Assembly (NCBI GenBank): GCA_017304685.1
Contig: JAFKLR010000007.1
Span: 1-54,506 of the forward strand
Length of the DNA: 54,506 nt
Direction of reading: 5' to 3'
From: Sphingobacteriia bacterium
Lineage (GTDB): Bacteria; Pseudomonadota; Alphaproteobacteria; Rickettsiales; 33-17
In this document: one piece after another, positions 3,824 to 23,234 of the stretch
How the letters are laid out: every line of letters starts with the position of its first letter
Numbering within the stretch: the stretch's first letter is position 1
Program-made: the position numbers and the translations under genes
Notes under the pieces: model-generated
Told to the model about the DNA's origin: nothing
Database searches by the model: none
What the model saw: only the letters and a program-made list of their open reading frames with translations

Positions 3824-3868
3824 ATAATATTAGTATTTAATTGTTTATAAATTAAATACTAATATTAT
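3824..3868. promoter_or_regulatory. Perfect 18-bp inverted repeat overlapping a start codon
   Basis: The left arm ATAATATTAGTATTTAAT (3824-3841) and its exact reverse complement (3851-3868) are separated by nine bases. The right arm runs into the ATG at 3867-3869. There is no Shine-Dalgarno for that gene. The half-site ATATTAGTATT occurs again at 3742-3752, and a 15-bp palindrome TTCTAC-GTA-GTAGAA lies at 3751-3765. It may be a repressor operator, an mRNA hairpin hiding the start codon, or both. Confidence 0.6.
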
Positions 3869-4727
3869 GTTAGAAAAAGTTTTAAAAAAATCAATTAAAG
3901 AAGGTAATATTGATTATATACGACATTATTATAAACTTTCTAAACTTAATTGTTTTAAATATAGAAACTATTATCCAAAAAAAGGATATACAACAGTACT
4001 TCACTTAGCAGCACGTTATAATCAAATTGAAGTTATCCGATTTTATTGCCAGGAAATGAATATTGATATTAATATTCTAGATTCAAACAAAGAAAATATG
4101 CTTGCTTCAGCAAAAAAGCTTTCACTAGTAAAAGAATTATATAATTTAGAAATTAACATTATAGCGCTAAATAAAGAGAATAAAGGAATAATTGAAACAT
4201 CTTTATGTCAAAAAAATTATAGGAAAGCAATGTTTGTAACCACTATATTTTATTTAGTACATAATGTAAATTTACCTTACTTAAAAAATCTCTGGGATCA
4301 GCATTTTCGAAAGATAAATTTTGATGAACAAAAGAATCATACAATATTATTTTATCAAAAATTTTTCTTAAATTTAGAAATAGTGCATAGATTAAATTTT
4401 AATAAAACAACTAAAGAGCTTATTTCACTAAATTTTAATGAAATAATGAAAATTGCAGGTAAATGTTACAGAAATAATATTGAGAAGGCAGTTAAAATTT
4501 TTATAGCTAATAGATATTTAGGGAATTTAATGTTATTGTGTTCAAAAGATATTTATCTAAAATGTTTTTCAAAATCTATGGAGATTGAATTACCAAATGA
4601 AATTGTATGGACTATAGCTTCTTATTTAACTTCTTATTCAATTTCTTGGACAGAGTTGAATAGATCATATGTAGAAGCTCGTAAATCATCTAAAATTTTT
4701 AAAAATAATAATATAGGATTGAAATGA
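3867..4727 (+). CDS. Ankyrin/F-box-like protein coupled to the ketosynthase gene
   Basis: 286 residues. Residues about 45-110 hold ankyrin-like repeats (TTVLHLAARYNQIEVIRFYC, then a shorter helix pair). The middle is helical and unrecognised. Near residue 235 comes LPNEIVWTIASYL, a good match to the start of an F-box. The architecture parallels the protein at 2078. Its stop overlaps the ketosynthase start (ATGA at 4724-4727), so the two are translationally coupled, which is odd for a host-directed protein and a biosynthetic enzyme. An 18-bp inverted repeat covers its start codon. It could be an effector, or a scaffold or regulator of the pathway. Repeat and motif calls are moderate; the role is unknown. 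Confidence 0.55.
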   Translation: MLEKVLKKSIKEGNIDYIRHYYKLSKLNCFKYRNYYPKKGYTTVLHLAARYNQIEVIRFYCQEMNIDINILDSNKENMLASAKKLSLVKELYNLEINIIALNKENKGIIETSLCQKNYRKAMFVTTIFYLVHNVNLPYLKNLWDQHFRKINFDEQKNHTILFYQKFFLNLEIVHRLNFNKTTKELISLNFNEIMKIAGKCYRNNIEKAVKIFIANRYLGNLMLLCSKDIYLKCFSKSMEIELPNEIVWTIASYLTSYSISWTELNRSYVEARKSSKIFKNNNIGLK

Positions 4728-5824
4728 GTATTTGTGCGATTAAAGGTATAGGTATAGCTACATCATATGGCTTAGGTTTTGAAAAGCTTAAAGATGGATT
4801 ATTAAATAATTACTCTACTATTAAATATTCAAATTTATATAATAAATTTGTAGCTGAAATTCCTATAAAAAATAATTTTAAAATAAGCACCTATTCATTA
4901 TTAGAATATGTTATTAATGAAGCTCTAGATAATGCAAATTTAAGCAAAGAAAAATTAAAAGATAAGAATGTATTAGCTATAATATGTACAAGGTCAGGTA
5001 AAGTACCACAAAAACTTATTGACTTAACCGTAGAAAGTGAGTGGTTAAAAGATAAAGAATTCTTGATAAAGAAAATATTAAATTTAAAAAATATATATTT
5101 TGCTTCTATAAGCGCTGCTTGTGCCACAGTGAATTTTGCAATAAATCAGGCCATTAATTTATTAAAGGATCAGTCTTTATTTGATTATGCTATAATATTA
5201 GGTAGTGAATTATTAAATAAATATGAAATAGCTGGAATGGAAGCTACTAAAGCTTTAGGACAATTTCCTGCAAAACCATTCGACAAAGAACGCGCTGGTA
5301 TTAACTTAGGTGAAGGTGGTGGTGCAATAATAATAGAAAATTACAAAGGGGAAGATAATGCAAAGGCAATTATAAAAGGAGTTTCTACAAGAGTATCTGT
5401 TAAAAGCCCTACTCAAACGGACATATTAGCGTTTTCAAATGTTATAAAGGATGTTTTAAAGAACTCGAAAACTAATAGAATAGATATGATCAATGCACAT
5501 GCAACAGGAACAATAGAAGGTGATTCTGCAGAATGTAAGGCTTTAAATTTATGTGAATTATTAAATGGTGTGCCCGTGACTTCTATAAAGGGCGCCATTG
5601 GGCATTTACTTTACTCAGCTGGTTTTCCTTCAATTGTATCAAGTATTATTTTCATGCAAAATAATATAATACCTCCTACAATTGGGTTAGAGAATATCGA
5701 TACTGAATGTAATATTTCAGCTGTTAATAAAAACCCTATTAATAAAAAAATAAAAAATATACTTATTAATAGCGCAGGATTTTATGGAAACTATTCTAGT
5801 ATGATATTAAGTTCTCCTGTGTAG
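4724..5824 (+). CDS. Beta-ketoacyl synthase (KAS/FabF-like)
   Basis: 366 residues, a little shorter than FabF (about 410). The thiolase-fold triad is complete: Cys133 in SAACAT, His259 in NAHATGT and His294 in KGAIGHLLYSAG. Such enzymes condense an acyl thioester with a malonyl-type extender on a carrier protein. No acyltransferase, ketoreductase or free ACP is nearby, so it may use the NRPS carrier domain or host/housekeeping ACP. It starts inside the stop codon of the ankyrin gene and its last 29 bases overlap, tail to tail, the AMP ligase gene on the other strand. Company with an NRPS, PPTase and exporter argues for secondary metabolism rather than membrane lipid synthesis. Confidence 0.85.
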   Translation: MSICAIKGIGIATSYGLGFEKLKDGLLNNYSTIKYSNLYNKFVAEIPIKNNFKISTYSLLEYVINEALDNANLSKEKLKDKNVLAIICTRSGKVPQKLIDLTVESEWLKDKEFLIKKILNLKNIYFASISAACATVNFAINQAINLLKDQSLFDYAIILGSELLNKYEIAGMEATKALGQFPAKPFDKERAGINLGEGGGAIIIENYKGEDNAKAIIKGVSTRVSVKSPTQTDILAFSNVIKDVLKNSKTNRIDMINAHATGTIEGDSAECKALNLCELLNGVPVTSIKGAIGHLLYSAGFPSIVSSIIFMQNNIIPPTIGLENIDTECNISAVNKNPINKKIKNILINSAGFYGNYSSMILSSPV

Positions 5825-7184
5825 AGGAATAACACTGAGACGCTAAATTCTTCAGAGCTATTCTATCGATTTTACCATTCGAGTGATAGGGTAATGATTC
5901 AATTATAAAATAATACTTAGGAAATAATTCCTGGTGTAATTTCTCTAAACTCCATTTTTTAATATCTTCGATTATATTAGTATCCTTTGAATTAAGCTTT
6001 ACAAGAGCAGTTAATTTCTTATGGCCAAGGTCATTCATATCAATATAAGTTACACCGACTTCTTCTATATTTTTATGATTAAGCAATGTTTGTTCAATAG
6101 TTTCTGGATTGATATTATATCCATTTACAATTATAATATTTTTTTTTCTTCCTATTATTTTAATATATCCTTCTTCATCTATATTAACAATATCACCAGT
6201 GTAAAGCGTTTTATCTGCTATGTTAAAAGTATAATCTCCATTTTCAAATACCCAATATCCTTCCATGATACTTGGGCTTTCAACAACTAATTCACCATCT
6301 TTTTCTACCCAAGTCTGTATATTTTTTAAACATTTACCTACACTACCAAACCGAAAATTTTCTAATGTATTAATGGAAATATTAGGGCCCGCCTCAACTT
6401 GACCATATCCATCTAATATTGGTTTACCGGTAAGGTTATACCAAAGTTTTGCTAGTTTAAGTGGTAAAATATCCCCTCCACATCCCCAAATTCTAATAGA
6501 AGAAATTTTAGAAACATAATTTGGATTTTTTACTAAAAAATTATATAAAAAAGAATAAAATACAGGTGTACTATCATATGCAGAAGATTTAGTTATATTA
6601 ATAATTTCACATAAATGTTTAGGATTTAAAGTATCTGCTAAAATTAAATCCATTTTATATTTTTCCCACATATGTAAAATACTCAAACCATAAGCACACC
6701 ATAAGGGTAAGGATATTAAAAGTTTATCATCTGTCAGGTAGTTTAAATGATTAAAAGTGGCTGTTGATTGAAAGTTTATGCCATTATGATTCCAAGCAAT
6801 AAGTTTAGGCATACCAGTAGTACCAGAGGATCGACAGATAACAGCAACATTATTCAATTCTTTATTATTTAAAAATTTTTTGGATGAAATCTTTATATAC
6901 TCTAGTTTATTTTCTGTTTCTTTAATAAGTAAAGAAGCTCCAAATTTTTTAGCTTCTTCTTTTGCTTCAAGAGTTTTGTATATTATTAAAGGTATTAGAT
7001 TTAATTCTCTACACGCTAAATAAACCTTTAAAAATTCTAAATTAGATTTGAAATTAAGGCCTATAACTTCTTTATCATTTACACCTAATGATTTCAATTT
7101 ATATATTTGATGTTGTACTTCTTGTTGGAAAAAGGGATATAATTGCTCATTCAAATAAACCTTCCCATATCTTTTAAAGCTCAT
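5796..7184 (-). CDS. AMP-dependent acyl/aminoacyl ligase
   Basis: 462 residues of the ANL superfamily. Visible cores: P-loop SSGTTGMPK (119-127), GYGQVEAG (259-266, where GYGxTE is usual), YTGD (328-331) with the catalytic Asp, the hinge GRKKNIIIVNGYNINPETIE (345-364), and the C-terminal lysine in SNGKIDR (Lys438). It should activate a carboxylic acid as acyl-AMP and pass it to a carrier protein or CoA. There is no fused carrier domain, and it is short, as in standalone acyl- or aryl-activating enzymes. Its start overlaps the end of the TPP enzyme gene by 11 bases, so it is third in the exporter-TPP enzyme-ligase operon. The substrate cannot be read with confidence. Confidence 0.85.
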   Translation of the reverse strand: MSFKRYGKVYLNEQLYPFFQQEVQHQIYKLKSLGVNDKEVIGLNFKSNLEFLKVYLACRELNLIPLIIYKTLEAKEEAKKFGASLLIKETENKLEYIKISSKKFLNNKELNNVAVICRSSGTTGMPKLIAWNHNGINFQSTATFNHLNYLTDDKLLISLPLWCAYGLSILHMWEKYKMDLILADTLNPKHLCEIINITKSSAYDSTPVFYSFLYNFLVKNPNYVSKISSIRIWGCGGDILPLKLAKLWYNLTGKPILDGYGQVEAGPNISINTLENFRFGSVGKCLKNIQTWVEKDGELVVESPSIMEGYWVFENGDYTFNIADKTLYTGDIVNIDEEGYIKIIGRKKNIIIVNGYNINPETIEQTLLNHKNIEEVGVTYIDMNDLGHKKLTALVKLNSKDTNIIEDIKKWSLEKLHQELFPKYYFIIESLPYHSNGKIDRIALKNLASQCYSSTQENLISY

Positions 7185-8859
7185 GTCTCACCTCTTCTCC
7201 TAAATAATTTTCTTTAATACCTATTGGTATGTCTTGAACGTTTATTTGTAGCTCAATAATTGAAATATTATTATTAAGTGAATTAGTTAACGCTGATTCA
7301 ATACATTTATTTAATGATTCTAAATCGCTAGGGGAAAAATAAAATGCATCGAGTTGTTTAGCTAATGACTCAAGATTATCTTCTTTTTCGAATTTACATC
7401 CTATGGAAATATTTTGGGATTTTTGCGTCAATGCTGGCCATCCGAAACCCTTATTATTGAGAATTATATAAATTATACCTAGTTTTTTTTCAGCTGCCGT
7501 AAATAAAGCTGCTCTTCCAAAAGAAAAGGATCCATCACCTGTAACTGAGATTACAATTCGTTCTTTATTACTAATTTTAACCCCTACTGCAACACCTATA
7601 GGTAAACCTAATCCTGTATGTTCCCCAGGTGAGAAAAATTTATCGTGTTCACCATTTATGTGAACTGGATAAAAATAAGGCCACATATCGTTTAATCCAT
7701 TATCAGAAACTAAAGTAAAACCGTTTGGAATTTTTTCCTTTAATAATTTGAATAAAAACCTTACTTTATTGCTTTCAAAATTAATATTATCGGTCAAATA
7801 AAATTTTTGTTTATTTTTAACTTTTTGAATTTCCCTTAGCCAATCCTCATTATTGCTTTTATTTAATAATTTAAATTCCTGTATTAATAATTTTAGTGTT
7901 TCTTTAGCATCTCCTATAAGTTTATAATCTGCTTTTATGGATTTACCTATATCTTCGGGACAGATGTTAAGTTGTATTATTTTCTTTGATTCAAGTAATG
8001 ATTTTATCCCTATTAAAACAGTTTCTTCAATCTGACTTCCAATAAAGAAAATTACATCCGAGGTATTTAATAATATTTTAGAAGGAAGAGAAGTATACAA
8101 TCCAATTAAACCACAGCTTTGATTATGTGTTTCATTAATACTCCCTCGTCCAGAAGCGGTAGTAAAAGCTGCTGCAGAAAGAATTTCAGTGATTGAAGTA
8201 AATTCTTCCTTTGCAGAAGAAATCATACATCCTCCCCCTGCAATTAATAAAGGTTTTTGAGCGTCACTTAAGATCTTTGCTATAGTTTTAATATCTTGTA
8301 TTATAGGAGAATATACATATTTCTTAGTATCTAGCGAAATATGTCCTTCATAATTTGTAAAAATTAAATCATCAGGTATTTCTATATAAACGGGCCCTGG
8401 TTTACCGTTTATAGCTATATTACATGCTTTTTGTAAAATGGGTTTTATCATATCGTAAGATTCAACTCGGTAAGCGAATTTTGTTATTGCTGACATGAAT
8501 CCTACAGAGTTAAATTCTTGAAAAGCTCCAGTATTTTTAAGTGACCTAGACACTCCATTAGAAATAATAATCATAGGTATACATTGAGAATAGGCCTCCA
8601 AAATACCCATTGAAGCATTCGCTAAACCTGGCCCTGGATTACATGAAACAAAAACACATTTATTACTTTCTTGGGAAAATCCAATAGCGGCTGCTATAGC
8701 CACCCTTTGATCTCTAAATGTATAAGTTTTAAAACCTATTATTTTTGCAGTTGCTTCTAAAAGACCTATACCGTCTCCTACCATTCCAAATAAAGTATTT
8801 ATACCTGATTCTTTTAATGAATTAGCATATAAATCCCATACATTATCATATGATCTCAT
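7174..8859 (-). CDS. Acetolactate synthase-like TPP-dependent enzyme
   Basis: 561 residues with the usual PYR, central and PP domains. The thiamine-diphosphate/Mg site is GDGSF (441-445) with the trailing Asn-Asn at 468-469. Segments such as NPGPGLANA (74-82) and GKPGPVYIEIP (152-162) are typical of acetolactate synthase relatives. Oddity: the activating glutamate of the family, normally in an RHEQ-like stretch, aligns with Asp50 in FRDQ. The family decarboxylates 2-oxo acids and joins or releases the aldehyde unit, making acyloins or acetolactate-type products. A strong AAGGAG precedes the ATG. It sits between the exporter and ligase genes in one operon. No ilvN-type small subunit is present, so a dedicated pathway role is more likely than valine synthesis. 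Confidence 0.8.
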   Translation of the reverse strand: MRSYDNVWDLYANSLKESGINTLFGMVGDGIGLLEATAKIIGFKTYTFRDQRVAIAAAIGFSQESNKCVFVSCNPGPGLANASMGILEAYSQCIPMIIISNGVSRSLKNTGAFQEFNSVGFMSAITKFAYRVESYDMIKPILQKACNIAINGKPGPVYIEIPDDLIFTNYEGHISLDTKKYVYSPIIQDIKTIAKILSDAQKPLLIAGGGCMISSAKEEFTSITEILSAAAFTTASGRGSINETHNQSCGLIGLYTSLPSKILLNTSDVIFFIGSQIEETVLIGIKSLLESKKIIQLNICPEDIGKSIKADYKLIGDAKETLKLLIQEFKLLNKSNNEDWLREIQKVKNKQKFYLTDNINFESNKVRFLFKLLKEKIPNGFTLVSDNGLNDMWPYFYPVHINGEHDKFFSPGEHTGLGLPIGVAVGVKISNKERIVISVTGDGSFSFGRAALFTAAEKKLGIIYIILNNKGFGWPALTQKSQNISIGCKFEKEDNLESLAKQLDAFYFSPSDLESLNKCIESALTNSLNNNISIIELQINVQDIPIGIKENYLGEEVRHEL

Positions 8860-8885
8860 TTCAATTTCTCCTTAAAATATTTTTA

Positions 8886-11800
8886 TTACTTAAGATGGTT
8901 TAATAGACAAATTTTTTTTTCTTTAATTAAATAAACTCTATCATAATTAATTAATTTCGAATGTTTATGGGTAATTGTAATTACCGTAGAATTAGAAAAA
9001 TGCTCTTTTATAATATTATCTAGAAGTTTGGAATTTATCATATCTAAAGATGAATCTGGTTCATCTAATAAAATTAATGGTTTAGGGTTTAATATTGCTC
9101 TGCAAAAACTCAACAACTGTTGCTCACCTTTACTTAAAACCTGTTTTTCATTAGAGATTTGTATCTCTAAAGGATTGTTATTTATACTTTTAAGTTTTTT
9201 TAGTAAATTAACTTGTTCTAATGCCTTGAGAATTATCTCTTCTTCATGTTGATTATAAGGATCAATATTGTTTCTTATATTTGTAGGATATATAATTGGT
9301 TTTTGAGGGATCCAGGTAATTAAAGATTCTAATTGAAGTTTATTATATTTCTTAAGTTCTAAATTATTTAGTTTAATTGAGCCCTTATATTCTTTTATAA
9401 AACCCATAAGTGTCATAAATAATGTAGTTTTACCTACACCGCTTCTTCCAATTACAGCTATTTTTTCTCCAGAATTAATTGAAATATTTATCTCTTCTAA
9501 TAAAATTTCAGAATTAGGATACTTTAAACTTACATTATTAAAAGTGAGATTTAATTTAAAATTAGGATAAGTGATTACTCTATTTTCATAATTATTATAA
9601 TTTATTTTTCCATCTATATTACTATTAAAATTATCTATTCTTTCAAAGCTTCCTATATCATATTTTAATCTAATTATTTCAAGAATGCTTAAAGATAGAT
9701 GTTGAGTAATCATGAAGGAAGTTGATATTAAAAAACTTGATAAATTTTGTGAATTAGGTGTTTTAAAAAAGATTATAAATAAAATTAATAGACTAATAGT
9801 AATAATCCCAGCTAACTCGAGCATAAGCCAATAATAACTATAAGTTCCATTTTTAGTATAAGAAATATTAAGTATATTTATTAACTCATTTATAAATTTT
9901 TTATTAAAATAATTTGCAGCGGGTGTATTTCTTATTTGGGAGATATTAATTGAAGATTCATTAATATTTCCTAAAAGTGTGGAGATAGATTTTGCATTGT
10001 GATCAGATAAATAGGTAATTTTATATAAATATTTTTTTGCAGATTTATTAATAAACAAAAATGCTAATATATATATAATACTCATTTTAGGTTGATGCAA
10101 AATCACATAACCAACTGAACATACTAAAGAAGAAAATATATTCAAAGTAAAAGAATATTGAGAAGGTAGGTCGCAATCTAATTTATTTGTATCATAGGAT
10201 AATCTATTTATTAAATCACCAGACTTTATTATGGTTTTACTATATAAATCACATTGTAAAAATTTATTTATAATAGAATTAAAAAAATAAGAAGATAGCT
10301 TAATAGAATTAAAATATATTTTTTTTCTGATTAAGATATAAATAGTAACTGCGGATATATTTAATACAAAATAAATCAATAAAGCTGGAGTATTACCATA
10401 AATGAATTTATTATCATAATAGTAAGACAGCCAATTATTTGAAAATAATTGTAAAATTGAAGGTAATAATATAAGACCTATTAATATTTTATTTGAAAAG
10501 ATTTTATAAGTATACTGTATTAAAGAAGAAATAAGATTTGAAGAAGATTGGAAATCTTTAATATTCACTACTTCATCAATTTTTACATTCGTATCAGAAA
10601 TATTTGCTGTTGAAATTGAATTTAAAGCTAGATTAGATTTAATAGAGGTAATAGGATATTTTTTACAAGCCTCAAGGGGGTCCTCGTAAACTTTAAATTC
10701 GTTAGAACTTAAAATTATTATTTTGGAAATTCCTTCAATATTATCAATTTGTGAAGTTATGATAATTCTAGTTTTATTCTTAAGGAATTCTTTCATTAAC
10801 TTATTATATATAATAGAAACGCTATTAGGATCCTGAGAACAGAAAGGATCATCAAATATATAAATATCTGATTCTTTATAACATATTCTGGCAATATTTA
10901 TTCTTTGTTTTTGTCCCTCAGAAAGATTAATACCATTTTCTTGAATTATTGTTAAATCCCTAAAAGGTAAAAAATCTATATCGTCAACTAAATTTGCTTT
11001 TTCTATAACTTCCCTATATCTTTTTTCATCAAATTGCTCAAAAAAAATTATATTATTCTTTATTGAATCATTTATAATTAAGGGTTCTTGACCACAAAGA
11101 GCAACTTTACCATTAATCAATACACAATTTGATGAATTATTTACTAATGTATTTATAAAAGTAGTTTTACCTATACCAGTTTCCCCCCAAACAAGTACAC
11201 ACTCTCCAGGATTGATAATTCCTGTCAAATCGTCAGGTAATTTGTAATTAGAATTTGTGGTATACAAGTTCAAGTTAAAATGTTTGACAGAAATACTACC
11301 TTTATCAAGATCATAATTTTGATTTTGGTGCTTAATTATTTCATTCGTCAGCCATTCTGAAATAAAAAGGGTTATTCTTTGTGTTGCTACTTTAGAAATA
11401 TTAAATTCAATAAAACTTCTAGCAAAAAAGTATAAATGATAACGTATTAAAGTTAAAATAGTAATACTAGTAAAAATTTTTGAAATTTGAGCTTCTTTTA
11501 CTTGTAATAAATATAAAGATACGACAATACATGGAATAATTATAGAAATTGAATTTTGAAGAAAATCCAAAAGAAGTAAAAGTTTAGAACTTTTTTTTAT
11601 AACATTTTCTTCATTTTCCCTAATGCTTTTAAAATACCTATATGTAAAATGTTCAAATGAACAAATTTTTATTTCTTTAAAAAAATTTTTTAACCAGGTA
11701 AGGCAGTTAATTTTACTATCAAGAATGTCTTGAACTTCATTTTGTATTTTTTCAAATTTTTTTTCAGTATTTAAGTTTAAAAATATAAAAATTATTATTA

Positions 11801-13325: not shown

Positions 13326-13342
13326 ATTTTTTGGAGGAAACT

Positions 13343-14506: not shown

Positions 14507-15121
14507 ACTACAAAAGTAACTAGGAAAAGGCCTAAAATATAATTTAAATACATTCGGATTTTTATAATACTTTGCTAGTTTTTTAAAAGTTGAAGGGTTA
14601 TCGTAAGGTAAATTAGGAATTCCTTTTCCTAAGGCTTTTAATAAAGCCTCATATTCTGTCCATTTTTGAAAAAAATACCTTTTATCAAATGGATTAAAAA
14701 ATTGATTTATATCTTCTATAATATTTGGATCTTCTTTTTCTATATCTATTCCTAAAAATTTATTGTAAGAAAATGATATAGCTAAAATATTACCGGATTT
14801 ACTTAAAGAAAAGTTTAATGTAGAAGCTTGTCCATTTATTTTGATTTCTTCTTTACCATTTTTATTGGAATTTATTTGAATTTCCATTAAATCTTTTTTT
14901 TCATATTTAGAAATAAGCAATTTTAAAAATTTCCTTCTATTTATAAAAAGTAATTTATTACACATTGAATTTAATTTCTTTATTCTATCCTCTTCTAGTG
15001 AATTGGGGAAATAATTAATTATACTAAACTCTTTACTGTTTAAATTTACAAACCATAAGTGAATTTCTTCTTTCTTAAGTTCAAGATTATGAATATTATG
15101 TATAAGATGTTTAAGGTTCAT
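14456..15121 (-). CDS. Sfp-type 4'-phosphopantetheinyl transferase
   Basis: 221 residues, normal for the Sfp/Gsp group. Three family motifs are present: NFSLSKSGN (103-111), GIDIE (124-128) with the Mg-binding Asp126 and Glu128, and KWTEYEALLKALGKG (153-167), where the usual Lys-Glu-Ala is Tyr-Glu-Ala. It transfers the phosphopantetheine arm of CoA to a carrier-domain serine, here most likely Ser539 of the adjacent NRPS. It starts five bases after the monooxygenase stop, making it the third gene of the NRPS operon. A dedicated PPTase is strong evidence that the NRPS is meant to be active. Its 3' end overlaps the kinase gene on the opposite strand. Confidence 0.88.
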   Translation of the reverse strand: MNLKHLIHNIHNLELKKEEIHLWFVNLNSKEFSIINYFPNSLEEDRIKKLNSMCNKLLFINRRKFLKLLISKYEKKDLMEIQINSNKNGKEEIKINGQASTLNFSLSKSGNILAISFSYNKFLGIDIEKEDPNIIEDINQFFNPFDKRYFFQKWTEYEALLKALGKGIPNLPYDNPSTFKKLAKYYKNPNVFKLYFRPFPSYFCSLITSSFRCIKFFHLVD

Positions 15122-15125
15122 AAAT

Positions 15126-16157
15126 TTAGGAAAGAAAAATATTATTGAGATCAGATAAATATTTAAGGCCCGACATAATTTTTTTATCTTCTAGGCCGAA
15201 ATCAATTAAGCAAGCTATTTCATCAATACCGATTTTCTTTAACTGATTAACGTAAAATTTACAATTTTCAACAGTACCAAATAAGCCATTCTCAAAATAT
15301 TTTTCAAAAGCAAAATCTAAAAGAATCTCTTCATCATCATTATCTATTAATTCATCTATTCCTTTTGCTCTTTTTTCTAATTCCATCGAATTCTTCAAAT
15401 ATTTTATTAAGGGTTTATAAGCTAAATCGCGTATTACATCACTATTTTCCCCTAAATAAGTATGAAGCATTAACGTTACATGACCTTTAAAATTATTTTC
15501 TTTACAAACCTTATGATATAATTCAATTTTGTCTTTTAATTGGTTTATATCATGATTTAATAAATGTGTAAGAATATTACACCCAATTCTACCCGCTTTC
15601 TCAAAATTTTCTATACTACCTGCTGCTGTTAACCATAAAGGGAGTTTTTTTTGAATGGGTTTAGGAAATATACTAAATTGAATAAGTTTATTATTACCAT
15701 TATAAGCATCTACCTTCTGATCTTCCCAAAGCTTTTGAATTAATTCAATATTTTGATAAAGAATTTCATATCTTTTAGGGTAATTTTCAGGGTTTAGTAT
15801 AAAATCATCGGGGTGCCAACCAGCGGCAGCAGATAATCCGATTCGACCATTTGTCAGGTTATCTAAACAAGCCCATTGTTCGGCAATTAAAATAGGGTTA
15901 TTTAAAGGGAGTACAACACTTCCCGCTCTAATTTGTATTTCAGTCGTTAATGTCGATAATGCAGCACCAATTAATGCTGGATTAGGGAATAATCCGCCGA
16001 AATCATTAAAATGTCTCTCAGGAAGCCATACAGCCTTAAAATTATTTTTATCAGCAAATTTAGTAGCTTCTATTACTAAATTATATTTCTGACTTTCATT
16101 ATATGAAAATAAGCTAGAAAAAAAGAATAAACTAAATTGCATACCGATTCTCTTCAT
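15126..16157 (-). CDS. Luciferase-like FMN monooxygenase of secondary metabolism
   Basis: 343 residues, a bacterial-luciferase TIM barrel. Recognisable segments are the N-terminal strand GMQFSLFFFSS, WLPERHFNDFGGLFPNP (about 44-60), IRAGSVVLPLNNPI (about 75-88) and LSAAAGWHPDDF (about 108-119). These match the group of luciferase-like monooxygenases found inside or beside NRPS/PKS enzymes (the MupA-like natural-product LLM family). They need reduced FMN and oxygen and typically oxidise a carrier-bound intermediate. Here it is a free protein whose start overlaps the NRPS stop by 26 bases, so translation is coupled. Reduced flavin could come from the FMN reductase at 3162. The exact reaction is not predictable. 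Confidence 0.85.
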   Translation of the reverse strand: MKRIGMQFSLFFFSSLFSYNESQKYNLVIEATKFADKNNFKAVWLPERHFNDFGGLFPNPALIGAALSTLTTEIQIRAGSVVLPLNNPILIAEQWACLDNLTNGRIGLSAAAGWHPDDFILNPENYPKRYEILYQNIELIQKLWEDQKVDAYNGNNKLIQFSIFPKPIQKKLPLWLTAAGSIENFEKAGRIGCNILTHLLNHDINQLKDKIELYHKVCKENNFKGHVTLMLHTYLGENSDVIRDLAYKPLIKYLKNSMELEKRAKGIDELIDNDDEEILLDFAFEKYFENGLFGTVENCKFYVNQLKKIGIDEIACLIDFGLEDKKIMSGLKYLSDLNNIFLS

Positions 16158-19100
16158 TATAAATTATATCCTTTATTTTTATAAAAGGATTATCTGATAC
16201 GTTTTTTACTAATAGTTTAAAATCATCAATAAAAGATTCAATAAACTCTTTGCTATAAAGCTCAGTAGAAAATTCTATTGCTCCTTCAATAGAATTTTGG
16301 GTGGTCCAAATATCCATAATAAAATAAAGGATTGAGGTTTTTGGATGTCTTTGCATTTTAAATGATTGGATTTCATTACCTAAATTAATATCGCTTGTAA
16401 GATTGTTTCGAAAGTTTAATTGAACCATCCCCAAATGTTTATATTTCATTAAATATTCTTTTTCTAACTCCTCTAATATATATTCGAATGGTATGTTTTG
16501 ATTGTTTAAACTATCAATAACATTATTTTTTACTTGTTCTAGATGTTCCGTAAACCCTAATTCATTATTGATTTCTATCGGTATTAGTAAAGTATTCATT
16601 AACAACCCTACCGTAGTTTCGAACTCTTCTGTTACTCTATTAGCAACATTAGTGCTTATTATTATATTTTGATTATCCGTATTTCGTTTATATATTACCA
16701 TAACAAAGATAGCGGTAAAAAAGGTAAAGATTGTAAGATTATAAGATTTACAAATATTATTAATATTTTCTATTATAATGGAATTTTCTAATTTGAAATA
16801 TTTTATATCTCCTCTATAATCCTTTCTTTCATCAATATCTTCTTTAAGTATAAGAATATCATTATTTGATAGTATCTCTTTCCAATATTTTAACTGGGCT
16901 CTACCTTCATCAGAATGTATAAATTTATTTTCCCATTGAACAAATTCTTTGAATTGTACTACTTCCTTACTATTTTTATGAGTTTGATTTTTATAAAAAT
17001 TACATACTTCATCCAAGATGATAGATTTTGACCAACCATCTACAATAATATGATGAAAATTTATCAAGAGTATATGCTCTAGTGGGGAGCTTTTAATTAT
17101 GGAGACGTTAAATAAAGGCGGCTTAGTAAGGTCAATTATCAAATTTTCATTTTCAATAATATAATTTTCTATTTCTTTATATTTTAAAGAATCATTCAAC
17201 TGAGAGATATCATGTATTATAATATCAAATTCAACATTACTATGGATGGACTGTTTAAGCTCGTTTTGTAAATGAATAAAACTAGATCTTAATGAATCAT
17301 GTCTATTAATTACATATTTAAAAGCTTTTTTAAGTAATTCTATATCGAGTAATCCTTTAATATTCCAACTAGAAGGTAGTTTTAACGCTAACCCACCTCC
17401 TTCACTTACTTCTTTAAAATTAGTTAACTGAGCAAAAGTCACTGGAATGAGATTTTCAGAAAAAGTAGATAAATTACTTATTTGATAGGAAATTCCAATT
17501 TTCTTTTTTATTATTTTATTTAAATTGCCAAAAGTAATATTTTCAAGTATTTCTCTCATTGTTAATGAACAAGCAATTTCTTTTCTTATTTTCGACAGTA
17601 ATCTTGCAGCCATTAATGAATGTCCCCCTAAATGAAAGAAGTTACTTGAATCATCTATCTGCTTAACTTTTAAAAGATCTTCCCAAATTGTTTTTAATTT
17701 GTTCGTAATATTGTCCTGATTTTCTACAATAGAATTCCGATCTTTTTCTGAAAGCGTTAATGATTTATTCTCTAACATTTCTTTTATATTTTTTCTGTCG
17801 ATCTTACCATTTAAAGAAATTGGAATAGAAGAACAAAAATGATAATAGGTTGGACACATATAACTTGGTAGATACATTGAAATATGCTCCTTTATCTCGC
17901 TCTCATTTAAGGTACTTTCTTTTTTTATTATTACTGCATGTAAATGATCTTCTTCATTTAGTTTTAGAGGTAATACTATCGACACTTCAACTTTATCATG
18001 AAGATTAATAATTTTTTCAATTTCTCCTATCTCGATCCTGTAGCCTCTTAATTTAATTAGCGAGTCATTCCGCCCTACATAAATTAACCCTTTATCAACT
18101 CTTCTTACTATATCCCCAGTTTTATATAATCTTCCATATAAAGGGTGATTTATAAAACTTTTAGTCGTCAGGTTTTCATTTTTCCAATATGAATCTGCAA
18201 CACTTGAACCTCCTATAAACAACTCTCCTTCAATTGTAGTATGCAAATTCTCATTTAAAATAAAATAAAAATAATTTTCTAAAGGATCTCCTAGATAGAT
18301 TTCTTTTTCTCCTTTACCTACTAATGAACATGATGACCAAATAGTTGCTTCTGTTGGTCCATACATATTCCATAATTCGCAATTATCATTTATAATACTA
18401 AATATTTGGTTTGCTAAACTTGCGTCCCAATACTCACCACCACAAAGGACCTTCTTTAAATTATAAAATGTTTCATTTGAATTAATTAACATCCTTAAAG
18501 TAGAAGGAGTTGACTGAAAAATGGTAATTTGATTTGATGATAATTGTTGGGAAATATAGTCTATATCAGTCCTTAAATGGTTAGGACATATTATTACTTG
18601 AGCTTGGGAAATAAGGGTTAAATAAAATTCTAACCCAAATATATCAAAGGATACGGGTGTTAGAGAGAATAAAATATCGTTTTGATTAACTTTTATCTTT
18701 TTAGAAATAGAATATAAAAAATTAGTTAAATGTTTCCTTTTTATTACTACACCTTTAGGATGACCAGTTGAACCTGATGTATAAATTACATAAGCAATGT
18801 TATCAGGATTGTACGAAGTTTTATATGGCTCTTCATTAATATAAGTTAATAATTCTTTAATAGAAAATGGAATATTTGTTATTTTGAACTCTACGTCTAA
18901 ATTTTTAAGAATATCTTCTTTTTGTGATATTAAAAGCTTACATTCTGCATCTTTTAAAATATATTTAGCACGTTCAATAGGATAATTTACATCTATAGGC
19001 ACATAACCTGCTCCACATTTTAATATGCCTAATATTACTATACTTAATTCACAAGATGAAAATAATCTAACTCCAATTAAATCGTTATCTTTTACACCAA

Positions 19101-19233
19101 GCCTCCTTAATTTAATGCAGAATAAATCGCTTAGTTCATCTAATTCTTTATAAGATAAAGACCTTTTTTCATCCTTAATTGCAATTTTATCACTTTTGTA
19201 TGTAATTAATTCCAATACATCTTTAGTAATCAT
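16132..19233 (-). CDS. NRPS module A-T-C, predicted glycine-activating
   Basis: 1033 residues. The adenylation domain (about 5-490) has YTSGSTGHPKG (151-161), YGPTE (291-295), YKTGD (370-374) and the catalytic Lys477 in NGKIDR. The carrier domain (about 505-575) has LGGHS with Ser539 as phosphopantetheine site. The C-terminal condensation domain (about 590-1030) has HHIIVDG (727-733), intact. Reading the specificity positions by eye gives D-I-L-Q-L-G-M-I-W-K, one change from the glycine code DILQLGLIWK. The A-T-C order and lack of a thioesterase mean the condensation domain probably joins the carrier-bound unit to a free amine or to another protein's substrate. It is first in the operon with the monooxygenase and PPTase. 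Confidence 0.92.
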   Translation of the reverse strand: MITKDVLELITYKSDKIAIKDEKRSLSYKELDELSDLFCIKLRRLGVKDNDLIGVRLFSSCELSIVILGILKCGAGYVPIDVNYPIERAKYILKDAECKLLISQKEDILKNLDVEFKITNIPFSIKELLTYINEEPYKTSYNPDNIAYVIYTSGSTGHPKGVVIKRKHLTNFLYSISKKIKVNQNDILFSLTPVSFDIFGLEFYLTLISQAQVIICPNHLRTDIDYISQQLSSNQITIFQSTPSTLRMLINSNETFYNLKKVLCGGEYWDASLANQIFSIINDNCELWNMYGPTEATIWSSCSLVGKGEKEIYLGDPLENYFYFILNENLHTTIEGELFIGGSSVADSYWKNENLTTKSFINHPLYGRLYKTGDIVRRVDKGLIYVGRNDSLIKLRGYRIEIGEIEKIINLHDKVEVSIVLPLKLNEEDHLHAVIIKKESTLNESEIKEHISMYLPSYMCPTYYHFCSSIPISLNGKIDRKNIKEMLENKSLTLSEKDRNSIVENQDNITNKLKTIWEDLLKVKQIDDSSNFFHLGGHSLMAARLLSKIRKEIACSLTMREILENITFGNLNKIIKKKIGISYQISNLSTFSENLIPVTFAQLTNFKEVSEGGGLALKLPSSWNIKGLLDIELLKKAFKYVINRHDSLRSSFIHLQNELKQSIHSNVEFDIIIHDISQLNDSLKYKEIENYIIENENLIIDLTKPPLFNVSIIKSSPLEHILLINFHHIIVDGWSKSIILDEVCNFYKNQTHKNSKEVVQFKEFVQWENKFIHSDEGRAQLKYWKEILSNNDILILKEDIDERKDYRGDIKYFKLENSIIIENINNICKSYNLTIFTFFTAIFVMVIYKRNTDNQNIIISTNVANRVTEEFETTVGLLMNTLLIPIEINNELGFTEHLEQVKNNVIDSLNNQNIPFEYILEELEKEYLMKYKHLGMVQLNFRNNLTSDINLGNEIQSFKMQRHPKTSILYFIMDIWTTQNSIEGAIEFSTELYSKEFIESFIDDFKLLVKNVSDNPFIKIKDIIYNEENRYAI

Positions 19234-19265
19234 GCCTTGCTCATTCTAAAGTTAATTAGTTATTT

Positions 19266-19313: not shown

Positions 19314-19380
19314 ATTAATAGTTGCGTTAATTAGTGTAAAAAAATATTAAATATTAAACCGTATTGAGGGAAGGTATAAC

Positions 19381-20610
19381 ATGGTAATTTCTGAATATAA
19401 AATTTTTGATCAATATGCAGAATTCATTGATCAAAATCGAAACGTTATATTTGAAATATTGACTGAAATTGCTACTTATAAAAGTATTGAAGATGAAATT
19501 GAAAGATCTATAAGAGTTTTAAAAAATGCAGCTAGTGAATTAATAAAGGAAAATCCACCTCAAATCAATAATATTGCAATTTATCATTCTTCTAATGCAA
19601 TTTTATATACATTTGTGCTATACTGTCTTATTGCATCGGCCTATACTAAAAATATATATATAAGACCTTCGCATCAAGTTTCCTCACCTACTTCAAAAAT
19701 AGTAGAATTATTTACTAACCATTTTAAAACTCCAATTAAACTATGTAATTTTGGACAAAGAACCTTTGCATATAATGTTGGTTTTTCTGATGTAATAATT
19801 TTTACAGGTAGATATGAAAATAGTTTGGAAGTAATATCAAGACATAAGCATCACTTATTTCTATTTTTCGGGTCTGGGACTAATGCAATGATCTTAGGAA
19901 ATAATTTTGATTTAGAAGAATTTACTAATAAAAGCATAAGTTCCAGAATATTTAATTCTGGCCAAGATTGTATGTGTCCAAACATTATTTTTGTTCCCAA
20001 TTCAATTGTTGATGATTATGCTACACTTTTGATAAAAAAGCTCGAGCTTTTAAAATATGGTCCAAGAAATAATCCTTCAGTAGACTACTCTGATATTTTT
20101 TATGAAGGGGTTGTGGAAGATGTTCAAAAATATCTTACTGAAAACCATAAATGGGTTATTTACAATAAAAATCGTGAAGAAGTAGAGAATAATAATTTAC
20201 TGCATCCAATTGTATTGAAATCTTCTATAAAAAATATGGCAGGAATTATGGAATATTTTTCTCCTGTTTTCAATATTGTTGCTTATGATAATTTTGAAGA
20301 ATTAAGTCAGTTTTTATCAAATGATCACTCTTTGGAACATGCAATGTTTCTTTCTGTTTTTGGAGAAGAAACCTTATCAGAATCATTACATAATTATTAC
20401 TGTATATCTAAAAACCAGACTATATTTGAATTTGAAAATGGAAATTACCCTTTTGGAGGTTATGGTATAAAAGCAAATTTTGTAAAAAGTGAAAACATCT
20501 CTGTTGGTAAACCTATATTAATTTCAAAAGAAATAGCCAATCATTTTAATAAAATTAAAAATAATGAGTCTACTAATGATAATCAAGAATCGATTAAGTT
20601 GTCTGTATGA
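19381..20610 (+). CDS. Aldehyde dehydrogenase-fold enzyme, possible thioester reductase
   Basis: 409 residues, shorter than typical ALDH (about 480). The catalytic-cysteine stretch FNSGQDCMCP (191-200) places the nucleophile at Cys197. The C-terminal NYPFGGYGIKANF matches the closing ALDH motif. The region normally giving E-L-G-G-K, with the general-base Glu, reads FFGSGTNAMIL (162-172), so that Glu is missing. Glu loss is typical of ALDH-fold enzymes acting on acyl thioesters or acyl phosphates (LuxC- or ProA-like). A role in reductive release of the NRPS carrier-bound product as an aldehyde would fit, since no thioesterase or reductase domain is present. It is first in a four-gene operon diverging from the NRPS. 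Confidence 0.75.
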   Translation: MVISEYKIFDQYAEFIDQNRNVIFEILTEIATYKSIEDEIERSIRVLKNAASELIKENPPQINNIAIYHSSNAILYTFVLYCLIASAYTKNIYIRPSHQVSSPTSKIVELFTNHFKTPIKLCNFGQRTFAYNVGFSDVIIFTGRYENSLEVISRHKHHLFLFFGSGTNAMILGNNFDLEEFTNKSISSRIFNSGQDCMCPNIIFVPNSIVDDYATLLIKKLELLKYGPRNNPSVDYSDIFYEGVVEDVQKYLTENHKWVIYNKNREEVENNNLLHPIVLKSSIKNMAGIMEYFSPVFNIVAYDNFEELSQFLSNDHSLEHAMFLSVFGEETLSESLHNYYCISKNQTIFEFENGNYPFGGYGIKANFVKSENISVGKPILISKEIANHFNKIKNNESTNDNQESIKLSV

Positions 20611-21568
20611 AAGTATGTATATTGCTCTCAAAATAATAAATTTCGATTATTATTTTGAAGCAATTACAAGTCCTTTAGGGTTTGCTATTGAAGCAAACAT
20701 AAAATCAAGAGGTTGGATTTTATGTGGACAAAGCGATTTAGATTATTTTGAACCTAAATTTAATATGGGAATTAAAAGCGAATGGGAAATTATAAAATCT
20801 ATTGATTTGAAAAAAATATTGAGAACTGAATTAAAATTAAAGCCTGTAATTATAGATACCGAACCATTATTTATCGATTATTATCATCATATCGGTGTGG
20901 GCATAGGTATGCCTCATACTATTACAATTTTAGATTATAATGAAACCCAAAATAGTGTCCTTATATATGATAAACTTTCTCCAAATACAATGGATAAAAA
21001 TAAAGAGGGGTTTTTTTGGATTTCTTTAGAGGTTTTTAATAAAGCTTTTGAAAATAGATTATATTTTCTAAAATATCAGTTATCTTCAACAGATCTTAAC
21101 TGGGAAAAGGAATTTTTCGAATTAATAAAACAGAGTTATATTAATATGCGAAAAACAGTTAGTCGTGAATTTATTAATATGCAAGCATTAGGTATCGAAG
21201 GAATTAAGACTTTTAGCGAAACAATTCGATATTTTGACCCAAATTACTATGATGATTCTTTAACTATTTGGTTATTTACTAATAGAATACCTATTTATAT
21301 TGCTCAATCTGTACTAGGAAATAGATATATATTTACAAAAGCCTTTGAAAAAACATTTCACAATAGACAATTTAATTTTATAGATGAGACCATTCTTGCA
21401 TTAAAAGAAGTAATGCAAAAATGGGTAAATTTAAGGAAAACATTTATTAAAACTGGTAACGGAGAATTAAATTTTGAAAATTTAGCGGATGAACTTTTAG
21501 AAATTGCGTATACCGAAGAAAAACTCAGTTTTACATTAGAAAATTTCTATATGAGTAATTGTAAATGA
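20564..21568 (+). CDS. BtrH-like acyltransferase (cysteine-protease fold)
   Basis: 334 residues. The N-terminal half matches the BtrH_N pattern: Cys13 in RLSCLYES, His118 in GMPHTITILDY and Asp136 in VLIYDKL form a papain/C39-like triad. In butirosin synthesis BtrH moves an acyl group from a carrier protein to an aminoglycoside amine. The helical C-terminal half resembles the DUF4872 partner of that domain. The start at 20564 lies inside the preceding gene (47-base overlap) and is preferred, or the in-frame ATG at 20576, because later ATGs would lose Cys13. Here it could transfer the carrier-bound chain to an amine, releasing the product. Family call good, substrate unknown. Confidence 0.7.
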   Translation: MSLLMIIKNRLSCLYESMYIALKIINFDYYFEAITSPLGFAIEANIKSRGWILCGQSDLDYFEPKFNMGIKSEWEIIKSIDLKKILRTELKLKPVIIDTEPLFIDYYHHIGVGIGMPHTITILDYNETQNSVLIYDKLSPNTMDKNKEGFFWISLEVFNKAFENRLYFLKYQLSSTDLNWEKEFFELIKQSYINMRKTVSREFINMQALGIEGIKTFSETIRYFDPNYYDDSLTIWLFTNRIPIYIAQSVLGNRYIFTKAFEKTFHNRQFNFIDETILALKEVMQKWVNLRKTFIKTGNGELNFENLADELLEIAYTEEKLSFTLENFYMSNCK

Positions 21569-22248
21569 AACTAATGCATTTTCAAATGATACAATTTAAT
21601 AAAAAAGTATTTTCTGATTATAGTCATTCAGAATTGAACAATAAAATCAACTTACTATACACTGAGAATTTAACACCTCAATTAATACAAACTATTGTCT
21701 TTCCTTTAATAAATGATTTTTATAACAAATATCCAGGATTAGATTGCAAAACTAACCTTATCATAAATTGTGAAAACATTATCAGTGCATATTTAGAAAA
21801 TTTTACTACCCAAGTTAATAATAATGAACGGATTCGCCCTTCCTCTTCTTTAAATATTGAAGTAAGTGCTTTAGCTAATACGGTTGCCACTTTTCTTAAT
21901 ATTAATGGTCAAATCGAAACAATTTTGCTTGATTATAATTCTATTATTCCTTTAATAAGAACTTTAACCCCTTTAGAAGGGGAAATACATACATTCAATA
22001 TATTGGTAAATATTAAGCTTGATCCAGACTCTTTTAAAATTGAAAAGATTTCCCTATTTACAGTATTGTTATCGCATGAGAATTATAATACAGAATTAAA
22101 TTTTGAGTTAGTTAACTCCTTAAATAAAAACTCTGAATTAATAGAATCATTTGATAAATTAGTAATAAATTTATTTAATTCAAAAGATAATAACACATTT
22201 TACTACGGATTTAACAACAACTACATTAAATTTACCAAATTAACTTAA
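21565..22248 (+). CDS. Unknown protein in the acyltransferase operon
   Basis: 227 residues, no signal peptide or membrane segment. I do not recognise the family. The sequence mixes beta strands (HTFNILVNIKLDPDSFKIEKISLF) with helices and ends in GFNNNYIKF. The start overlaps the BtrH-like stop by four bases (ATGA), so the two are translationally coupled and probably work together, perhaps as subunits or successive enzymes. The 17-base gap to the TPR gene keeps it in the same operon. Candidates include a carrier-protein-binding or condensation-like accessory protein, but no motif supports either. Confidence 0.7.
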   Translation: MKLMHFQMIQFNKKVFSDYSHSELNNKINLLYTENLTPQLIQTIVFPLINDFYNKYPGLDCKTNLIINCENIISAYLENFTTQVNNNERIRPSSSLNIEVSALANTVATFLNINGQIETILLDYNSIIPLIRTLTPLEGEIHTFNILVNIKLDPDSFKIEKISLFTVLLSHENYNTELNFELVNSLNKNSELIESFDKLVINLFNSKDNNTFYYGFNNNYIKFTKLT

Positions 22249-22265
22249 AGAGGTATAATAAATTT

Positions 22266-23234
22266 ATGCTTACTAAAGATAACCAAGATCTTAAACATGA
22301 TATTATTTTAACAGCACATGGTCTTTATAAATCAAGGTTATATAATGAAGCACTAACTATTTATGAACAAATTCTTAAAATAAAGCCTACTTTGTCAGAG
22401 GCTTGGAATGGAAAAGGAAATTGTTTATATTATTTAAAGAGATATGAGGAAGCTGAATCGTGTTTTGATAAAGTTCTTGAGAATGGAACAAATTCTATTA
22501 ATGCTTTAAGCGGTAAGGGCATTATTTGTTTAAAAAAAAAAGAATATTCTAAATCTATTGAGTATTTTAATGAGGTTTTAAAACTAAACCCAAACAATGG
22601 AAAAATATGGTCTATAAGAGCTAAAATATTTATATTATACATTTATAGAGAGTTTACCAATACTCTAAATGAACAAGAAATATCTCATTTAAAAAAAATT
22701 AAACTAGCTTTTACACAAAATAATACTTATGCCTTAATTGAAAATTATTCCAAAGTACTTAACGAAAAAAATTATTTAGGAAGATTAATATGTTTTGAAT
22801 ATTTATCAGTGCTTTCTCCTACATCTGAAAAATATTCAAATGAATATTTAAAAAATTTGATTATTGTTGATCCTATATTAGCTAAACAAGTATGTCTAAA
22901 GTTTTTATCTAGTGATTCTTATATGTATAATGAAATTGCAGTATCTTATTTAAAAAAGTTTCTTTTAGAATCAAAAGGTAAACATGAAGTAAAATCTTTA
23001 TTTCTAAGCTCGTTAACTTATATTTTGAATCATCATCATGCTTTAAATAATTTATTTCCAAATAAAATGACATTGTATGAAAAAGCCTTAATAGAAGGTG
23101 TATTTAATGGATTAATTATAAAAGAATTGTGTAACACGATAAATTTTCCCCAAAAAGATAGTATTAATATTAGAGCACAGAATTTAAAAGAATCAGGATA
23201 TGGGCATAGGTGGTCCAATAATAGAATTTTATAA
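22266..23234 (+). CDS. TPR-repeat protein
   Basis: 322 residues. Three consecutive tetratricopeptide repeats occupy about 15-118 (YNEALTIYEQILKIKPTLSEAW, then YEEAESCFDKVLENGTNSINAL, then YSKSIEYFNEVLKLNPNNGKIW, each with the usual small and Pro positions). The rest is alpha-helical, perhaps degenerate repeats. A clean AAGAGG site precedes the ATG. It closes the ALDH-BtrH operon and is the last gene of the cluster. TPR proteins act as scaffolds, and this one may bring pathway enzymes together or bind a host partner. Its end is overlapped, on the other strand, by a read-through remnant ORF (see 23235). Confidence 0.8.
   Translation: MLTKDNQDLKHDIILTAHGLYKSRLYNEALTIYEQILKIKPTLSEAWNGKGNCLYYLKRYEEAESCFDKVLENGTNSINALSGKGIICLKKKEYSKSIEYFNEVLKLNPNNGKIWSIRAKIFILYIYREFTNTLNEQEISHLKKIKLAFTQNNTYALIENYSKVLNEKNYLGRLICFEYLSVLSPTSEKYSNEYLKNLIIVDPILAKQVCLKFLSSDSYMYNEIAVSYLKKFLLESKGKHEVKSLFLSSLTYILNHHHALNNLFPNKMTLYEKALIEGVFNGLIIKELCNTINFPQKDSINIRAQNLKESGYGHRWSNNRIL

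Follow-up and report, generated by a model that had tools for sequence, protein, structure and literature searches.

The window, a 54,506-bp contig (C7) of a 2.12 Mb genome in 11 contigs (99.1% complete), carries a compact natural-product gene cluster at positions 3867-23234. Fourteen open reading frames (ORFs) cover 98.6% of this region; they form five transcription blocks on both strands, with overlaps of 4 to 51 bp at 7 of the 13 gene junctions. Four of the genes, encoding a ketosynthase (KS), a thiamine pyrophosphate (TPP) enzyme, an aldehyde dehydrogenase (ALDH) and an AMP ligase, make up a conserved quartet that is evidently the lipid module of fusaricidin. They are accompanied by a small non-ribosomal peptide synthetase (NRPS) with adenylation, thiolation and condensation (A-T-C) domains, and a spergualin-type product is tentatively proposed. 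Families were assigned with Pfam and NCBIfam. The enzymes named in a preliminary description of this DNA were all found at or near the positions it gave, and the catalytic motifs looked for in them were all intact. The genes are as follows; the first lies just outside 3867-23234.

3162-3665, minus strand: NADPH-dependent flavin mononucleotide (FMN) reductase (Pfam FMN_red, 69.1 bits)
3867-4727, plus strand, block 1: ankyrin-like protein (Ank_3, 25.5 bits); its end and the beginning of the KS gene overlap by 4 bp
4724-5824, plus strand, block 1: KS, FusC type; Cys-His-His motifs intact
5796-7184, minus strand, block 2: AMP-dependent acyl ligase, FusF type
7174-8859, minus strand, block 2: acetolactate-synthase-like TPP enzyme, FusD type; Asp replaces the catalytic Glu
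8886-12413, minus strand, block 2: full-length ATP-binding cassette (ABC) exporter of two halves, each a transmembrane domain (TMD) and a nucleotide-binding domain (NBD), in the order TMD-NBD-TMD-NBD
12477-13325, plus strand, block 3: DUF2608 HAD-type phosphatase-like protein (92.6 bits; motifs DIDET, TSR and FVDN)
13331-14506, plus strand, block 3: choline-kinase/aminoglycoside-phosphotransferase (APH)-like kinase
14456-15121, minus strand, block 4: Sfp-like phosphopantetheinyl transferase (PPTase), weak match
15126-16157, minus strand, block 4: FMN-dependent luciferase-like monooxygenase (LLM), MupA/Atu3671 family (TIGR04020, 420.7 bits, cut-off 244.45)
16132-19233, minus strand, block 4: A-T-C NRPS; A-domain code DILQLGMIWK, T motif GGHS, C-domain motif HHIIVD
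19381-20610, plus strand, block 5: ALDH-fold enzyme, FusE type; Cys197 catalytic, general-base Glu absent
20564-21568, plus strand, block 5: BtrH/DarH-like protein (weak), predicted acyltransferase; segments RLSC, MPHT and LIYDK
21565-22248, plus strand, block 5: probable degenerate KS partner (chain-length-factor-like, half-size), 227 residues
22266-23234, plus strand, block 5: tetratricopeptide repeat (TPR) protein, the final gene of the ALDH block, after a 17-bp gap

An initial protein search with the window ALDH returned 51 proteins including its own, the closest other at 46% identity; this search needs shared five-residue words and missed relatives found later. The metagenomic ALDH P0002, 46% identical, comes from an 88.9-kb contig. 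On two Streptomyces plasmids, genes for the ALDH, TPP enzyme and AMP ligase lie in a row (with a small gene interposed in one), and one of the two plasmids also has a KS. A scan of named GTDB genomes with an ALDH alignment turned up 119 loci, and the counts below refer to the best 80. Of these 80 loci, 78 have the TPP enzyme at E 1e-5 (65 of them within 300 bp), 69 the AMP ligase, 68 the KS and 57 all three partners; matches count anywhere within loci of up to 21 kb and may include a KS or ligase from other pathways. The counts are the same after NRPS-like frames are taken out. They come from six-frame ORFs; a simple gene caller split or missed genes in G+C-rich loci. Contig-end cuts explain some of the misses, not all, and seven ALDH loci from other genomes of the window's order serve as a partial control. 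KS, TPP enzyme, ALDH and AMP ligase are a conserved quartet.

The quartet enzymes also share unusual active-site states. The catalytic Cys197 is kept in all 84 aligned ALDHs, the window's included, and none has Glu in the general-base column or in the next one. The catalytic-Glu column of the TPP enzyme holds Asp in 81 of 81 sequences. Both columns were set by eye, that of the ALDH via alignment to a solved ALDH and that of the TPP enzyme likewise. From established ALDH knowledge, an enzyme without the general-base Glu is expected to carry out thioester rather than plain acid chemistry, and this is what the quartet ALDH points to. With its four genes encoded together and its enzymes in these states, the window carries a Fus-type (FusC/D/E/F) acyl module.

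Fusaricidin is a lipopeptide with a guanidino-3-hydroxy fatty acid. Table 1 of PMC6829208 lists fusG as an enoyl reductase, fusF as an acyl-CoA ligase, fusE as an aldehyde dehydrogenase, fusD as an acetolactate synthase, fusC as a 3-oxoacyl synthase, fusB as '(3R)-hydroxymyristoyl-acyl carrier protein' and fusA as the NRPS; the same source reports that in strain WLY78 each of the fusB-fusG deletions abolished antifungal activity and the fusaricidin peaks. Paenibacillus ottowii (locus L022) and its relatives have the gene order and lengths (ligase 1461, ALDH 1224, TPP enzyme 1701 bp) of that table; their arrangement is therefore the fusaricidin cluster. A different strain of P. ottowii is reported to be a fusaricidin producer with fus genes.

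The window resembles the fusaricidin cluster of the Paenibacillus polymyxa group in its KS (FusC), TPP enzyme (FusD), ALDH (FusE) and ligase (FusF). The fus cluster, whose product bears a C15 chain, adds an enoyl reductase, a multi-module NRPS and fusB (taken for a dehydratase). The window, for its part, has a single glycine module, a half-size KS partner, an LLM, a BtrH-like protein, a kinase and an exporter. No enoyl reductase (fusG), fusB-type protein or multi-module NRPS was recognised among the window's cluster ORFs, and the whole genome has one condensation domain. The earlier claim that the gene set matches no known cluster thus fails for the quartet; for the full set beyond it, only partial precedent was found.

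It is very improbable that the cluster is an accidental or decaying collection of unrelated genes, gained by horizontal transfer, that have no product in common. The five blocks on both strands and the mixed nearest relatives of the genes would fit such an origin, but the dense coding, the overlapping junctions, the intact motifs and the conserved quartet argue against it. Joint function, which the preliminary description had inferred, is supported by the recurrence of the quartet, its match to essential fus genes and the intact catalytic motifs.

The closest relatives of the quartet enzymes are found in several bacteria. The TPP enzyme tree (81 tips) unites the window with Photorhabdus L010, Bacillus L015 and L017 and Brevibacillus laterosporus L009 (support 1.0), L010 being the closest (0.868). 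The AMP ligase tree (63 tips) places it with L009, L015 and L017 (1.0). For the ALDH (84 tips) its neighbour is L010 (0.97), and the others of the TPP clade follow weakly (0.57).

B. laterosporus L009 shares with the window the KS, half-size KS partner, TPP enzyme, ALDH, AMP ligase, LLM and ABC exporter. It differs in that an aminoacyl-tRNA-synthetase-like carrier-protein ligase and an acyl carrier protein (ACP) replace the A-T-C enzyme, and in its three-gene exporter (by eye) as against the fused one. A 373-residue protein of L009 matches the amino acid:[carrier protein] ligase Bll0957 (2.1e-28), a type which we take to be glycine-specific; an 87-residue ACP (by eye) and the LLM adjoin it. 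No match to the PPTase, kinase or DUF2608 protein was found in the 21 kb of L009. The window kit appears comparable to that of L009, with the A-T-C enzyme replacing ligase and ACP. The set is not wholly without precedent: the quartet is known from fusaricidin, and most of the combination occurs in L009.

Photorhabdus tasmaniensis L010 has both the TPP enzyme and the ALDH that lie closest to the window's in the trees, together with an AMP ligase and a glycine-like A domain (DILQIGFIWK); unlike the window it has a radical-SAM-like gene (by eye), and no KS was found within the 17.8 kb examined. By sequence, glycine-type loading is thus seen in the window, L009 and L010, which are three of the four types of cluster in the TPP clade. 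In Bacillus L015 and L017 the quartet is joined to an NRPS with the A-domain code DVGEVGTIE.

The ten specificity positions of the window A domain read DILQLGMIWK. As a control, the same script reads DFWNIGMVHK, presumably the threonine code, for the first A domain of the Paenibacillus loci L022, L030, L033, L042 and L048; the other Paenibacillus loci so read gave DFWNIGMVYK (L019, L020), DVWHFSLVDK (L032) and one other domain (L029). Among the 93 glycine domains given in PMC12283262, all four with a MOX domain share DILQLGMIWK, and the MOX domain is described there as cleaving the glycine backbone. Activation of glycine on the carrier is predicted for the window A domain. The dedicated PPTase that the preliminary description assigned to the NRPS is present, but as a weak match below cut-off (Pfam 21.3 against 25 bits; NCBIfam HetI 56.8 against 370). 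Elsewhere in the genome PF01648 has one AcpS-size match; the same search missed the window PPTase and is therefore insensitive. By eye, no stand-alone ACP was found among the window's short ORFs with a carrier-like serine motif.

The LLM gene overlaps the NRPS gene, and the closest solved structure is PuwE. The enzyme is predicted to hydroxylate carrier-bound glycine, and the FMN reductase at 3162-3665 could supply it with reduced FMN. PMC10204066 describes FMO domains in glycine modules and alpha-hydroxyglycine in solanimycin B, as well as a hydroxylation in myxothiazol and melithiazol after which the carbinolamide is cleaved. Solanimycin SolF and the myxothiazol-type modules pair a glycine A domain with an FMN monooxygenase that attacks the alpha carbon, as is predicted for the window; in these systems the monooxygenase is embedded in a megasynthase and the products are far larger.

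The LLM might instead cleave the carrier-bound glycine in the manner of myxothiazol and melithiazol, leaving a primary amide of a basic acyl chain. The A-domain code shared with the four MOX-containing glycine domains, and the hydroxylation and cleavage described for those two compounds, speak for this outcome. However, the window LLM is a separate protein and does not lie within the A domain, the C domain after the carrier would be left without an evident role, and solanimycin keeps its hydroxyglycine (PMC10204066). Cleavage to a primary amide is accordingly judged quite unlikely.

A second alternative is an omega-amino- or omega-guanidino-acyl-glycine lipid or peptide with no polyamine, that is, a fusaricidin relative cut to one amino acid. 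The quartet is best known from fusaricidin, the NRPS of L015 and L017 shows that the module serves several peptide products, and the window KS groups with actinomycete KSs. On the other hand, the fusG-type enoyl reductase and fusB type needed for a long chain were not recognised in the cluster, and the LLM is found among the loci only in L009 and Paenibacillus L042, with a trace in L078 (0.0058). Such a product is considered rather unlikely, though it deserves some weight.

The 227-residue protein at 21565-22248 has a phmmer match only to the L009 partner among the 6802 ORFs of the loci (2.6e-4). The L009 partner, encoded directly before its KS, itself has a weak ketoacyl-synt match; a profile of the L009, L015 and L017 partners scores the window protein at 20 bits. 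To judge by these matches, 21565-22248 appears to encode a degenerate KS partner like those of the B. laterosporus and Bacillus loci. When an alignment of the half-size KS partner was searched against 5.8 billion proteins, 2376 candidates were scored and four clusters were returned, a result which singles out this protein; one cluster has 71 Bacillus paranthracis-type members, and the L009 protein is absent. Such partners may be commoner in the quartet module than the searches show.

ApeO-ApeC is a KS/chain-length-factor pair which makes aryl polyenes; like the window, it has a full KS and a partner of about 240 residues. A low-confidence structure model of the window partner (pLDDT 52.8), used as a hint only, has mostly ketosynthase folds as its top Foldseek matches, none at E <=0.001, and ApeC (6qsp_B) is the fourth (E 0.042), a likeness of fold only. 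In locus L013, from a Symbiobacteriaceae metagenome-assembled genome, a 250-residue ORF (11017-11766) beside the ALDH matches the partner profile (7.2e-8).

BtrH catalyses acyl transfer from carrier to amine. The window protein at 20564-21568, earlier called a BtrH-like acyltransferase, is indeed a match of this kind but a weak one (14.5 bits to DarH, cut-off 300); it also matches proteins in six Streptomyces quartet loci (L005, L057, L062, L064, L065 and L079; not L006). Its structure model (pLDDT 40.8) was too poor and was not used.

Spergualin, first described in 1981, is understood to consist of a 7-guanidino-3-hydroxyacyl chain, alpha-hydroxyglycine and spermidine. The 7-guanidino-3-hydroxyacyl name appears in the reference list of PMC10204066. 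Its authors found just one further acyclic alpha-hydroxyglycine, that of spergualin from Bacillus laterosporus BMG162-aF2, and state that spergualin gave the immunosuppressant gusperimus. Deoxyspergualin breaks down to glyoxyspermidine and guanidinoheptanoate amide; at millimolar dose it is reported to block eIF5A activation through deoxyhypusine synthase, and in Plasmodium it reportedly binds Hsp70. L009 is tied to spergualin because B. laterosporus is the species named for it, and is put forward as a candidate spergualin locus. No spergualin gene-cluster assignment was found in the open-licence subset of PMC, judged mainly from titles and the starts of abstracts; in the portions of the literature covered, no published pathway proposal for the quartet chemistry was found, and papers on fus exist.

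The preferred reading, held tentatively and at somewhat less than an even chance, is that the window cluster makes an amide of the spergualin type: a 3-hydroxyacyl chain with an omega-amino or omega-guanidino group would be linked to alpha-hydroxyglycine, and this in turn to an amine such as spermidine. From a 2-oxo acid that corresponds to a basic amino acid, the TPP enzyme would form an omega-amino or omega-guanidino aldehyde by decarboxylation. Decarboxylation leaves a five-carbon skeleton in the case of lysine or homoarginine and a four-carbon one in that of arginine. Since the chains of spergualin (C7) and fusaricidin (C15) are both odd, a C5 starter of the lysine or homoarginine type would fit, and basic acyl chains would then share one logic. 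The ALDH would handle the aldehyde as a thioester, and the AMP ligase would activate the free acid. The KS and its half-size partner would add one malonyl unit, with a housekeeping reductase yielding the 3-hydroxyl. After priming by the PPTase, the A-T domains would load glycine, to be hydroxylated at the alpha carbon by the LLM with the FMN reductase. The BtrH-like enzyme would then couple acyl chain and glycine, and the terminal C domain would release the chain onto a free amine. This amine is probably host spermidine, because the genome gave no match to spermidine synthase (PF01564), the only polyamine route searched for. The final step is the weakest: once phosphorylated by the kinase within the cell, the product would leave through the ABC exporter, and outside it would be restored by the HAD phosphatase-like protein.

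Several observations weigh against a spergualin-type product. In the KS tree (33 tips), the window lies among eleven actinomycete KSs (0.935), and L009, L015, L017 and L013 come only in the next clade out (1.0). The window BtrH-like protein has no direct match among the L009 ORFs, where two other BtrH-like proteins are encoded, one of them sub-threshold (BtrH_N, 26.8 against 29.7 bits) and one seen by eye; the combination of KS, TPP enzyme, BtrH-like protein and LLM, which had been proposed as the one to look for elsewhere, therefore recurs in L009 for the most part only. Confidence is lowered by these BtrH and KS-tree results. No amidinotransferase was recognised in the window or in the L009 stretch, the latter not scanned exhaustively, and the source of a guanidine is thus unexplained. 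The LLM family is widespread (913 plasmid records, the closest at 46.6% from Nostoc), and the L010 genome has no close LLM. In the B. laterosporus genome, the window LLM matches two other LLMs at 46% and 41% and that of L009 at 39%; LLM similarity was rejected as a sign of orthology with L009, the family being common and closer LLMs lying elsewhere in the same genome. The printed MOX domains may belong to another family than the window LLM, and the LLM could cleave glycine instead of hydroxylating it. The DUF2608 protein need not serve the pathway, as four more copies are present in the genome. The amine acceptor, the reaction of the BtrH-like protein and the sequence of the steps are proposals, and it is we who infer that L009 is the spergualin cluster.

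The product may be host-active or act as a signal, as the preliminary description had suggested. If a likely intracellular bacterium makes a polyamine-like product, this would meet eukaryotic targets directly. The most extended form of the spergualin-type reading joins a cluster on a symbiont element with a type IV secretion system (T4SS), a polyamine-mimicking amide made within a eukaryotic cell from host spermidine and acting on the host's translation factor eIF5A, Hsp70 or immunity, a loop of phosphorylation, export and reactivation, and L009 as the spergualin cluster. It is unlikely that all of these hold together.

Phosphorylation inside the cell, export and dephosphorylation outside is a known style of antibiotic self-protection. 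The closest solved structures to the window kinase are choline kinases; the guanitoxin kinase GntI is a distant match only (108.8 against 357 bits) and was set aside. The DUF2608 protein has a hydrophobic N-terminal segment (residues 4-26), in agreement with the secreted phosphatase-like protein first described. DUF2608 is encoded by five genes in the genome, four of them outside the window. At C3:984-989 kb (L108), an ABC exporter and a kinase related to the window's (1.1e-10) occur with DUF2608, and at C4:88-91 kb (L109) an ABC exporter occurs with DUF2608; the remaining two genes are not beside ABC exporters. The ABC/DUF2608/kinase genes of the window are a repeat of the lineage's own arrangement. 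By eye, acetyltransferase-like genes surround these genes in L108 (1356-5838) and L109 (2416-5010), in a resistance-type arrangement.

The kinase, exporter and phosphatase-like genes could accordingly be a resistance-type module of the lineage that merely lies inside the cluster; this is a real possibility, a little short of even, and is compatible with any reading of the product. It would account for the two further arrangements in the genome and for the absence of any kinase or DUF2608 homologue (E 0.01) from the ORFs of the other loci. Against it, the genes are packed among biosynthetic genes: only 63 and 5 bp separate them from one another, and 26 bp lie between them and the TPP enzyme gene.

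A T4SS lies beside the cluster:

25323-37034, minus strand: T4SS genes (VirB4/B5/B6/B8/B9/B10/B11 and VirD4-type; VirB3 weak, 18.8 against 23.9 bits)

These genes bear out part of the earlier proposal of a conjugative element. However, among the ORFs scanned Pfam picked out no relaxase. The two ends of the contig share no overlap, so that circularity is unproven. The T4SS could help in spreading the cluster. Ankyrin proteins, a T4SS and a small A+T-rich genome fit intracellular life. By eye the 16S gene is of alphaproteobacterial appearance, and Rickettsiales is a tentative placement. The G+C content is 25.8% in the cluster, 29.8% in the T4SS region and 29.1-31.4% in four stretches of large contigs.

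Some ALDH match at 1e-20 is present in 39 of the 343 genomes of the order that were searched. A full-length ALDH of the subfamily, above 240 bits, is present in seven genomes (the window's included); one more reaches 146.7 bits, and the other 31 score at most 86.2 bits over a partial profile. None of the seven other genomes at or above 146 bits has the TPP enzyme or AMP ligase near the ALDH, and the only KS-like match is weak (2.3e-05). Within the order, the quartet is seen in the window's genome only, on a search which genomes with a quartet lacking a FusE-type ALDH would escape. Since the nearest relatives are in Bacillota and Photorhabdus, horizontal gain of the cluster is suggested. The ALDH relatives in the other genomes (L101-L105, L117), mostly of 650-700 residues and without quartet partners, probably represent a separate use of the same fold.

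Antibiotic-type clusters have been reported for Rickettsia buchneri. These clusters and the plasmid NRPS of Candidatus Megaera polyxenophila resemble the window as biosynthetic clusters in intracellular Rickettsiales, but have other gene sets. The rarity first claimed for such clusters in genomes of this kind is borne out by the ALDH counts above, but these examples show that biosynthetic clusters do occur in Rickettsiales. No ALDH or acetolactate-synthase-like gene is present among the 33 annotated features of the Megaera plasmid (pPCS109). Its NRPS (L107, 13888-19929) has a second A domain with the glycine-like code DILQLGVIWK. Its neighbours include an oxygenase and a MATE exporter, and the annotation nearby lists none of the quartet genes.

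Some other relationships were considered for the KS and the quartet. An amipurimycin/cispentacin-type KS pair (AmcF, NCBIfam 76.6 against 325 bits) was dropped, as the window KS falls among quartet KSs in the tree. L044, the streptoaminal/5aTHQ cluster of S. nigrescens, carries the ALDH but could not be tied to the quartet module; a review of these compounds describes two KS/chain-length-factor sets and an aminotransferase.

Quartet genes are also present in Streptomyces L005, L006, L057, L062, L064, L065 and L079, which form another cluster family; L005 and L006 also have tyrosine aminomutase, NikS and ATP-grasp genes. Bacillus cereus-group names among the half-size KS partners (P0173, 71 member sequences) and the ALDHs (P0014, 88) point to a quartet cluster there. 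The B. laterosporus genome (G344) has three LLMs (L113, L115 and L116), and the 46% one sits in a 1896-residue open frame.

Elsewhere in the window, the protein at 2078-3076 (no matches) and the ankyrin-like protein at 3867-4727 have in common an LPNEI stretch near the C-terminal end, which is F-box-like by eye; neither has a Pfam F-box match. At 49297-52092 a sodium:solute symporter domain is fused to a histidine kinase, and a response regulator gene follows at 52231-52599.

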